From an uncultured Opitutia bacterium (GTDB lineage: Bacteria > Verrucomicrobiota > Verrucomicrobiia > Opitutales > Coraliomargaritaceae): DNA of 64,000 bases. Shown here piece after piece: positions 28,585-63,067 of this stretch; the first letter of the stretch is position 1; every line of letters starts with the position of its first letter. The DNA is taken from NCBI GenBank assembly GCA_937136395.1, contig CAKZOI010000022.1, positions 186,001-250,000 on the forward strand, written 5' to 3'. The notes below the pieces were generated by a model, which was not told the DNA's origin, did not search any database, and saw only the letters and a program-made list of their open reading frames with translations. The translations under genes and the position numbers were made by a program.

Positions 28585-28704
28585 AGCTAAATAGTGTGCG
28601 TTGCCATTGATTCGGTGCACGATATTAAGGAGGCCAATCTTTAGAAAGACAAACGCTTGTTTGAATTTTTAGGTGAAAAGTTAGAGTGGGCAGTTTCCTT
28701 CAAT

Positions 28705-28799
28705 CGTAGCGTGCCGCTTTAGCAAACGAACCACCGTGCTTCCCATGCGGTCGTTTGCTAAAGTGGCACGCTACGTAAATCTCGCCGCAAACCACGCAC
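28705..28799 (-). repeat. Palindromic element behind tRNA-Leu, copy A
   Basis: Arms 28705-28732 and 28749-28775 are complementary over about 27 bases with one mismatch and one indel (core CTTTAGCAAACGA). On the minus strand a 31-nt stretch from 28799 to 28769, between the tRNA-Leu terminator and the palindrome, matches the corresponding stretch behind tRNA-Tyr at 26 of 31 positions. The element therefore has a fixed orientation relative to the tRNA gene. Confidence 0.75.
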
Positions 28800-33222: not shown

Positions 33223-33288
<66 letters not shown>

Positions 33289-33307
<19 letters not shown>

Positions 33308-33496
33308 CTTTAAGGCCGTCCGCAAGGACGGCCTTTTTTTGTGGTGAGAGTCGGATGAAGAACCAGCGCTGGTTTGACGGAGCGAACGTAGTGAGCGGAG
33401 AAGGGACACTCGTAGAGTGGTCGCGAAGCGATGCCGAAGGCACCAATCCGGCTCTCACCACCACTTTAAGGCCGTCCGCAAGGACGGCCTTTTTTT
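33289..33496 (+). repeat. Direct repeat of tRNA-Tyr 3' end plus terminator around a hairpin segment
   Basis: Bases 33289-33341 (last 19 bases of the tRNA including CCA, plus terminator) recur at 33445-33497 almost exactly, 156 bp apart. The segment between (33343-33444) contains ACCAGCGCTGGT (33362-33373), a 39-base stretch at 33371-33409 shared with the tRNA-Arg region, CACTC-GTA-GAGTG (33407-33419), TCGC-GAA-GCGA (33421-33431) and TGCC-GAA-GGCA (33432-33442). The arrangement recalls the tyrT repeats of E. coli, each of which also carries the tRNA-Tyr 3' end. Confidence 0.85.
33312..33341 (+). terminator. Terminator of tRNA-Tyr, copy 1
   Basis: A perfect 10-bp stem AAGGCCGTCC / GGACGGCCTT with a stable GCAA loop and a seven-T tract. 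Confidence 0.92.
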
Positions 33497-33497
33497 G
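33468..33497 (+). terminator. Terminator, duplicated copy 2
   Basis: Identical to the terminator at 33312-33341 and carried on the duplicated tRNA-Tyr end. With both present, transcripts escaping the first would stop here. Confidence 0.85.
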
Positions 33498-33591
33498 TGC
33501 GCGGTTTACGTCAAGTTTTACGTAGCGTTCAGCTTTAGCAAACAACCTCCTGGGTAGCGCGGTGGTTCGTTTGCTAAAGCGGCATGCTACG
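33497..33591 (+). repeat. Palindromic element behind tRNA-Tyr, copy B
   Basis: Arms 33521-33547 and 33561-33591 are complementary with a few mismatches (core CTTTAGCAAAC). The right arm, read on the minus strand, matches the left arm of copy A at 28705 at 30 of 31 positions. The 31-base linker at 33497-33527 joins the terminator directly to the palindrome exactly as behind tRNA-Leu. Confidence 0.75.
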
Positions 33592-33664
33592 ACTAATGAA
33601 AACTTTTTTGTGTGCGGATGAAGTTCCGAGGTCGAAGACCGACAAGACGGAGCGAACTGGTGAC

Positions 33665-59113: not shown

Positions 59114-59253
59114 TGGTATGAGAGCTGGGACTGGTTATGCTTCGCATAATCGCTTTGCGATCACCTTCGGTGCCCCATCTCCAGTCACTACGTTCCTTCC
59201 GTCAAACCCGTTCTCGTCCCAATCCGCTTCGCGGTGATGTGCTTGCTTCGCAA
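59114..59253 (-). repeat. Array of triloop mini-hairpins ending in a partial tRNA-Arg 3' end
   Basis: Downstream of tRNA-Arg on the minus strand, five self-complementary units stand in a row: TTGC-GAA-GCAA (59243-59253), CCGC-GAA-GCGG (59224-59234), CACC-GAA-GGTG (59162-59172), ATCGC-AAA-GCGAT (59149-59161), ATGC-GAA-GCAT (59137-59147). The stems all differ; the triloop is GAA or AAA. Between the second and third lies a 39-41 base stretch (59169-59209) matching 33371-33409 at 33 of 39 positions. The array ends at 59114-59132 in a copy of the tRNA T-arm/acceptor (GAGCTGGGACT shared with the gene). Confidence 0.8.
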
Positions 59254-59257
59254 CGAG

Positions 59258-59331
59258 CAAGGGAGCTGGGACTCGAACCCAGGACAACCGGTTTAGAAAA
59301 CCGATGCTCTATCCAGCTGAGCTACACCCTC
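59258..59331 (-). tRNA. tRNA-Arg (anticodon TCT), no CCA encoded
   Basis: A 74-nt cloverleaf: D-arm GCTC/GAGC, anticodon stem TCGGT / ACCGG with loop TTTCTAA, T-arm CTGGG-TTCGAGT-CCCAG, discriminator G. The acceptor stem is GAGGGTG / CTCCCTT, with a G-T pair at the end and a T-T mismatch at 6:67. It lacks CCA, unlike tRNA-Leu and tRNA-Tyr here. It is flanked by partial copies of itself on both sides, which suggests recombination at this gene has replaced part of its acceptor stem. Function is likely but not certain. Confidence 0.8.
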
Positions 59332-59395: not shown

Positions 59396-59476
59396 CGATG
59401 TTTCCGACTCCGCTACGCGGATCGGGGTTGTCGGCCTTCGGCCTCGAAACTATCCAGCTGAGCTACACCCTCATGT
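59396..59476 (-). repeat. tRNA-Arg 5'-fragment plus hairpin unit, copy 2
   Basis: Bases 59452-59476 are the first 25 bases of tRNA-Arg (GGGTGTAGCTCAGCTGGATA on the minus strand), followed by GGCC-GAA-GGCC (59433-59443) and CCGC-GTA-GCGG (59410-59420). The unit recurs at 62985-63067 in the same orientation. It cannot make a tRNA, because only the D-arm half is present. Confidence 0.82.
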
Positions 59477-59681
59477 CGTCATCGAGGAGGAAGAAGTCGT
59501 CAAATTTCCAGAACTGAATAAGTCCGAGCCTATTTCGGTTAAAGCGACTCGGATTCGGGATAATAACGGGCAGATTTCATCTTTCCCATGGGGAATCGTT
59601 GATTAGATATAAGCAGGTAAAAAGAGGCCCCTCGGCGCACAGTTAATAATTGTCCAGAAATTGAAAGCTCTCCGTGATTAG

Positions 59682-59795
59682 AATAATATGTAAATATTAC
59701 ACATCATCCTAAATGGGGTAATATGTAATTAGAAATCTCATGTAATTAATAATCTCATTGCCTAGCCCAAGGTAATCTAGGAATAATATGTAAAA
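59682..59795. promoter_or_regulatory. Iterated TAATATGTAA sites upstream of the cytochrome-sulfatase operon
   Basis: AATAATATGTAAA (59682-59694), GTAATATGTAATT (59718-59730) and AATAATATGTAAAA (59782-59795) are three near-identical sites in a very AT-rich region. An inverted partner ATTACACAT follows the first, and CATGTAATTA stands at 59739. They lie 110-220 bp before the operon start and look like regulator-binding iterons or AT-rich promoter elements. Confidence 0.45.
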
Positions 59796-59904
59796 ATGAC
59801 ATAATAACTTGTTCGTCGAAAAAAGATCGGTTACGTCGCCCTGCATCAGAACGAAGCTCGTAGATTTTTTGCAACTTTTCTAGCTCGTTGGCGTTCCATT
59901 GAGA

Positions 59905-62984: not shown

Positions 62985-63067
62985 CGACGTTTCCGACTCT
63001 CTGCTGCGCAGAGCTCGGGGTTGTCGGCCTTCGGCCTCGAAACTATCCGGCTGAGCTAAACCCTCAT
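62985..63067 (-). repeat. tRNA-Arg 5'-fragment plus hairpin unit, copy 3
   Basis: The same unit as 59396-59476: tRNA-Arg 5' bases at 63043-63067 (with one change in the D-arm and one in the acceptor), GGCC-TTC-GGCC at 63026-63036 and CTCTGC-TGC-GCAGAG at 62999-63013. The second hairpin has a different stem from copy 2 yet still pairs perfectly. With copy 2 it brackets the cytochrome-sulfatase operon. Confidence 0.82.

Follow-up and report, generated by a model that had tools for sequence, protein, structure and literature searches.

What are the small hairpins that are strung together behind a tRNA-Arg gene in this Opitutales contig, and do they form a class of repeat? We analysed a window of 64,000 nt (contig CAKZOI010000022.1 of assembly GCA_937136395.1, positions 186,001-250,000 of the forward strand), and all positions given here are those of the window. 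An earlier sequence-only reading had described mini-hairpins beside tRNA genes with variable stems and a constant GAA-type triloop. The hairpins that it named are all present in the sequence: five behind tRNA-Arg (59137, 59150, 59162, 59224 and 59243), three behind tRNA-Tyr (33407, with a GTA loop, 33421 and 33432), and others at 33630, 59433 and 63026. The loop class is constant as claimed, but GAA is too narrow a description of it. The loops have the form C(GNA)G, with GAA, GCA, GTA or GGA, plus a few AAA.

To measure the excess, hairpins of this class were counted in real and dinucleotide-shuffled sequence. Counted over both strands, the whole window contains 23 C(GNA)G hairpins with 4-bp stems, versus 8.6 ± 2.2 in shuffles. 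The spacers contain 16 with a stem of at least 4 bp, versus 1.95 ± 1.33 expected (200 shuffles; maximum 6), and the named ORFs contain 7 in 47.4 kb. In the regions around tRNA genes of the window's genome, hairpin density reached 1.55 per kb within 300 nt behind the tRNA, compared with 0.13-0.33 per kb elsewhere. The comparison with shuffled spacers and the peak of density behind tRNA genes thus bear out the suggestion that the hairpins exceed chance and are linked to tRNA genes.

The hairpins belong to a larger unit, missed in the earlier reading, in which inverted and direct copies of the 3′ part of the adjacent tRNA surround a conserved core. The tRNA-derived arms, the two modules and the mobility described below were likewise unseen. 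The Tyr and Arg loci of the window share this larger architecture around their mini-hairpins (Table 1). Read in the sense of the tRNA, a unit of the type containing module A starts with the intact tRNA, a terminator or hairpins, an inverted acceptor and T-arm copy in which the centre of the T-loop is altered, and a palindromic joint. Next come the T-arm 5′ half in direct orientation (GGTTYGA), core A (CGNA, the hairpin P3 and GNAGANGGG) and several C(GNA)G mini-hairpins, and the unit ends with CACC and the T-arm 3′ half, again direct, together with the acceptor. Direct T-arm halves flank core A, which therefore sits in the T-loop of a partial tRNA copy. The tRNA directly in front of the unit is the one that the arms match. 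Module A, including its hairpins, measures about 75-110 bp. In the tRNA-Tyr unit the two 55-bp direct-repeat copies are identical, and the second brings a second terminator.

Table 1. Features of the two element-bearing tRNA loci in the window (R2, model of module B).
Feature	Position	Strand	Basis
tRNA-Tyr (GTA), host tRNA of first element	33223..33307	+	ARAGORN and Rfam
55-bp direct repeat, copy 1: tRNA-Tyr 3′ part (from T-loop), CCA, terminator	33289..33343	+	sequence reading; direct 3′-end match 20/22
Inverted tRNA-Tyr acceptor/T-arm copy, T-loop centre altered; 5′ arm of outer stem	33341..33367	+	sequence; DNA fold pairs it with distal copy
Core module A (GGTTTGACGGA-P3-GGAGAAGGG); P3 = GCGAAC-GTA-GTGAGC, tandem G.A	33371..33405	+	sequence; covariation
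Three C(GNA)G mini-hairpins: CACTC-GTA-GAGTG, TCGC-GAA-GCGA, TGCC-GAA-GGCA	33407..33442	+	sequence
55-bp direct repeat, copy 2 (tRNA-Tyr 3′ part + terminator)	33445..33499	+	sequence
Module B remnant within second, degenerate inverted T-arm	33623..33657	+	R2 match 16.5 bits, E 0.0012; fuller counterpart in congener L045
Displaced tRNA-Arg 3′ end (AGTCCCAGCTCTCATACCA)	59114..59132	-	close to empty site in congener G001, L210
Three mini-hairpins CACC-GAA-GGTG, ATCGC-AAA-GCGAT, TTATGC-GAA-GCATAA	59135..59172	-	sequence
Core module A (GGTTTGACGGA-AGGAACGTAGTGACT-GGAGATGGG)	59174..59208	-	
Inverted tRNA-Arg T-arm copy, 5′ arm of element	59210..59222	-	sequence
Two mini-hairpins TTGC-GAA-GCAA, CCGC-GAA-GCGG	59224..59253	-	sequence
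tRNA-Arg (TCT), host tRNA of second element; 3′ end without encoded CCA	59257..59331	-	
B-like insert in D-loop of first tRNA-Arg 5′ fragment (GTTTC...GAAAC ends, two GNA hairpins)	59400..59450	-	weak R2 match 59409-59450, 10.7 bits, E 0.078
tRNA-Arg 5′ fragment (acceptor 5′ strand to D-loop), upstream of intact tRNA	59450..59472	-	sequence
Second B-like insert copy	62989..63043	-	read in sequence
Second tRNA-Arg 5′ fragment	63043..63065	-	read in sequence

At the Arg locus of the window's genome, CCA has been lost from the tRNA gene and is kept on the displaced 3′ end. This exchange could be due to the insertion or to contraction of an array. The 3′ end of the tRNA-Arg gene reads CTCCCTTGC, and acceptor position 2 carries a matching change that its congeners lack. 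Two other kinds of repeat were noted in these regions. A palindromic repeat of about 80 bp, with arms like CGTAGCGTGCCRCTTTAGCAAACGACC and their reverse, lies behind tRNA-Leu (28690-28795) and behind the tRNA-Tyr unit (33505-33595); it looks like a separate MITE. AT-rich repeats, ATTAGAATAATATGTAA / GGAATAATATGTAA, occupy 59660-59800, between tRNA-Arg and a cytochrome-c-domain gene.

To determine the distribution of module A, a covariance model of core A (R1) was run on 273 Opitutales genomes from 88 genera. Matches were found in 69 genomes and 33 genera. An exact-pattern scan of 84,980 species yielded 50 stretches with 65 matches, all in Verrucomicrobiota and essentially in Opitutales, including Coraliomargarita and Pelagicoccus. 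Among 122 copies aligned with R1, 100 lay less than 500 nt behind a tRNA on the same strand and none behind one on the opposite strand, and eleven isotypes were represented. A further 21 copies had no detected tRNA nearby; several of the tRNA-less cases from the pattern scan lie at contig ends, in long arrays or behind tRNA 3′ fragments. Tandem arrays, with units repeating every 140-170 bp or so, are common. The full core-A motif is found behind tRNAs only in the window's genome, namely Tyr, Arg and two Glu, and shorter forms lie behind Pro and Ser. The T-loop at the A site reads GGTTCG^A. TTCGA, with G at the purine position, was found in 73 of 76 A-bearing tRNAs, versus 23/38 and 32/55 among all tRNAs (three congeneric genomes), a comparison that is confounded with isotype. 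Copies from related genomes are included; such sequences are not independent, and the counts are therefore not counts of independent events.

The hairpin P3 consists of two base pairs, a tandem G.A, two further pairs and a GNA loop. In 98 distinct A sequences its positions were paired in 97.2%, with 69 double-change cells versus 16.7 in shuffles, and the covariation score was 0.491 versus 0.177 and was lost when the partners were slid, all on an alignment that was fitted to the model and so leans towards structure. The proposal that structure is conserved here and sequence is not holds throughout the order: the core hairpin has compensatory changes, and 38 distinct 4-nt stems occur under the one C(GNA)G loop.

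Comparison among three congeners showed that the elements are variably present at the same tRNA. Leu-AAG and Phe units occur in two species and are missing from the window's genome, and its Glu units are missing from congener G002. The Arg-TCT site is empty in G001, where the same antiporter gene lies downstream (gene identity by sequence similarity). Contig edges cut off some of the congener loci, often directly behind a tRNA, and absence is therefore not always certain. Since A is rarely found away from tRNAs, the evidence for its mobility is variable presence at tRNAs, and not a clean empty-site pair. Many assembly breaks in G001 lie right behind tRNA genes (L196-L199, L208, L213, L221, L223 and L225), as expected for repeated units there. 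Other inserts were also seen in congeners. Two loci behind tRNA-Phe (L199 and L232) carry a third type, with the GNA strand antisense, another core (CACGAATCGTTGATTGTTCGTC) and a distal tRNA 3′-end copy, which is missing from the window's genome. At tRNA-Thr CGT (L008 and L197), tRNA 3′-end copies with an inverted arm surround a different insert; the L008 unit is in tandem, and its contig ends within the array.

The second module, B, is about 50 bp long and has the core GTTCCGAG-hairpin-CGACAWGACCGGGC-hairpin-GAACCGGAMC; the ends of the aligned copies are GTTCC... and ...GGAMC. It shares the loop grammar of A. Behind Asp, Leu, Met and Val tRNAs it has the same architecture as A, but with the GNA strand antisense to the tRNA (12/12 copies behind tRNAs). 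B is joined to A at a tRNA-Ser locus (L035) and again near tRNA-Arg in L255. It also occupies the D-loop of tRNA-Ser 5′ fragments that precede the intact gene (L289, L291 and L292), and these insertions are better preserved than the diverged B-like insert in the tRNA-Arg 5′ fragment of the window. A model of module B (R2), run on the same 273 genomes, matched in 45, and 40 of the 55 copies fetched were not near a tRNA. In one genome (G067) nearly all of 21 copies lie away from tRNAs. The position beside tRNA genes noted in the first reading holds for module A, and most of the fetched copies of B depart from it.

Filled and empty sites of B were compared in protein genes. B is inserted in frame in the phage gene phrog_32036 on two IMG/VR contigs, and five related genes are uninterrupted. 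The empty site reads GCGG-A-GATC and the filled site GCGG-[TTCCGAG...CCGGACC]-GATC, a net gain of 48 bp with no target duplication. Three related species carry B in frame in polX, where relatives lack it at the same place; the empty site is CTG-AAAT and the filled site CTG-[B]-AAAT, again without target duplication. An rmlB-like gene also contains B in frame. At tRNA genes B lies after G and before A, in GGCCG^A of the Ser D-loop and in CTTG^A of the Asp T-loop on the minus strand. As judged from the sequences, the clean in-frame insertions after G without target duplication in the phage gene and polX indicate that B is mobile. Searches of plasmid collections (Tyr element and B) and phage collections (B) gave short chance matches only, or none. 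Eleven further IMG/VR matches to a looser B pattern were rejected as chance matches in coding genes, without the B hairpins.

In 149 distinct elements, the 110 nt that follow the core contain 525 hairpins. The C(GNA)G loop was present in 167 and almost missing from shuffles; its complement, C(TNC)G, was found in none, and GNRA tetraloops in 14. Stem pair 4 was Watson-Crick in 89%, and G.T made up 1-2.5% at stem pairs 2-4. If the conserved form were RNA, one would expect G.U to be tolerated and the loops to be GNRA or UUCG tetraloops. The very stable DNA mini-hairpin d(GCGAAGC), known from melting and NMR work, has the loop C(GNA)G. In the aptamer literature d(GCGAAGC) serves as an extraordinarily stable DNA mini-hairpin (PMC4686876). 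Both loop and closing pair are the same here; there the motif is synthetic or isolated, whereas here a genomic family seems to have been built from it. Folded single-stranded DNA would fit as the selected form better than RNA. The acting form would be a folded single DNA strand, because C(GNA)G loops are on one strand only, G.T is avoided, and the elements occur in both senses relative to the tRNA. Template-switch repair, by perfecting hairpins, could also make G.T scarce. Folding predictions (ViennaRNA, DNA parameters) did not set the GNA strand apart from its complement, and gave no special DNA stability for the B strand. To our knowledge, the energy models hold no bonus for GNA loops.

The comparisons above establish repeat families throughout the order, structural conservation, the link of A to tRNA genes, and empty sites for B in two genes without target duplication. 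We consider it probable that the window copies belong to an Opitutales family of mobile palindromic elements, short and non-coding, whose structured modules A and B insert after G at a G^A step in the loops of tRNA-gene hairpins, B also elsewhere. Both modules would enter the T-loop or D-loop at this site, and B would additionally enter other spacers and, in frame, protein genes. During insertion or repair, the tRNA 3′ end may snap back and so give rise to the inverted tRNA arms. Partial tRNA copies would tolerate insertions while the adjacent intact tRNA stays functional; as insertion into such a spare copy would be tolerated, elements may therefore collect there. The element is most likely selfish. 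Against this explanation, inverted tRNA arms are not a normal product of transposition. A bolder form of it is possible but doubtful: a new mobile class in which single-stranded DNA folded with GNA triloops inserts hairpin-into-loop at G^A of tRNA-gene hairpins and leaves snap-back copies of the arms, using an enzyme yet to be named or no dedicated enzyme.

Three other explanations were weighed. Module A might be a structured RNA, comparable to rtT RNA, that is transcribed together with the tRNA and then excised from the precursor; the tRNA arms would form its outer stem around P2, P3 and the hairpins, and it would have its own tRNA-like 3′ end and terminator. A behind a tRNA is always in the tRNA sense, a duplicate terminator follows the distal copy in Tyr, Pro and Leu, P3 covaries, and tandem arrays occur, as this explanation would have it. 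We nevertheless think it unlikely, since B follows the same loop grammar in antisense to every tRNA that it lies behind, the loops are GNA triloops and not GNRA or UUCG tetraloops, G.U pairs are avoided, and the element is missing at the same tRNA in congeners.

The segments could also be attachment-site scars (attL/attR) of integrative elements that use tRNA T-loops, with the hairpins as recombinase arm sites. Displaced tRNA 3′ ends are a classic mark of integration, and bare tRNA 3′ fragments precede some copies, as at the ends of islands or prophages (L161, L187 and L337). But the units are just 100-170 bp or so, tandem and gene-free; B occurs far from tRNAs and within genes; inverted T-arm copies are foreign to att sites; and no integrase gene was seen next to the window elements. 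Together these points make scars improbable. Least credible of all, to a degree that we find very improbable, are ordinary degenerate tandem duplications of tRNAs, together with transcription terminators, whose hairpins were perfected by template-switch mutation. Template switching does yield perfect Watson-Crick stems, and partial tRNA copies and copied terminators are present, but the conserved cores A and B recur in many families of the order, C(GNA)G is confined to one strand, and the insertions are precise.

We found no transposase linked to the elements, and no integrase family in the ORFs tested around those of the window. RAYT/Y1 was rejected as mobiliser: it is present in 122 of 273 genomes but missing from many element-bearing genomes, G002, G005, G012 and G015 among them, and its flanks lack the element. 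Thirty fetched Y1_Tnp loci from four genomes contained no clear A or B, save one that contains tRNA-Arg. Y1_Tnp proteins are common in the order (G000, G032, G187 and G237; L255-L284); they measure about 310-340 aa and sometimes occur in tandem. Within the window, Rfam gave only tRNAs above the gathering score and no known RNA family at the elements. A hammerhead-like core, GAUGA-stem-GA, was rejected because the equivalents of C3, U4 and A14 are lacking, as judged by eye.

Several known systems resemble the elements in part. The rtT repeats behind E. coli tRNA-Tyr (tyrT) are tandem units, each with a copy of the tRNA 3′ end. Module A is like them in this layout only; many isotypes, inverted arms, a shared core and the off-tRNA module B set the elements apart. 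Mitochondrial double-hairpin elements and palindromic repeats are likewise compact, dispersed hairpin elements, but they belong to eukaryotic organelles and have other sequences, and we know of no tRNA-loop site rule for them. The closest known kinds are Rickettsia palindromic elements (RPEs) and REPs. RPEs are short palindromes in spacers and in frame within unrelated genes, with no known transposase (PMC10969869, PMC3733652), and RPE-4 and RPE-6 have a CGTC tag at one end (PMC3733652). The in-frame palindromic insertions of B in polX, the phage gene and the rmlB-like gene are alike. RPEs measure about 150 bp, whereas B, of Opitutales, measures about 50 bp and has a preference for tRNA loops among gene sites, a fixed C(GNA)G loop and no GTAG/CGTC end tag. 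REPs are small palindromes with a GTAG or CGTC tetranucleotide at one end, and some lie in genes for replication and repair. RAYT recognises those of the GTAG type in the form of folded single strands, and Opitutus terrae has an abundance of GTAG REPs (PMC3733652). B differs from REPs in lacking either end tag, and RAYT genes are not flanked by A or B. A has GACG (CGTC in reverse) beside the P2 stem, a weak resemblance only. B is an in-frame palindrome without end tags or a link to RAYT, and we have therefore filed it as neither RPE nor REP. The tRNA-loop preference, the host-derived arms and the fixed loop are new here. Searches on tRNA-tail repeats and on Opitutales repeats, in literature from which most subscription journals are absent, turned up no description of these elements.

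How short palindromes without a transposase spread, such as RPEs and CGTC REPs, is a long-standing question. The A/B family offers a clear site rule, clean filled and empty pairs, a strong preference for tRNA loops, and a loop signature confined to one strand, which suggests single-stranded DNA as the acting form. It occurs in cultured Opitutales (Coraliomargarita and Pelagicoccus), where it is amenable to testing, and it offers an explanation for partial tRNA copies and for a tRNA gene without encoded CCA. Through its insertion in polX, B gives a repair polymerase additional in-frame peptides. The polX product has one linker that is a hot spot of in-frame insertion, and other low-complexity inserts are found there in several species (L363-L381).
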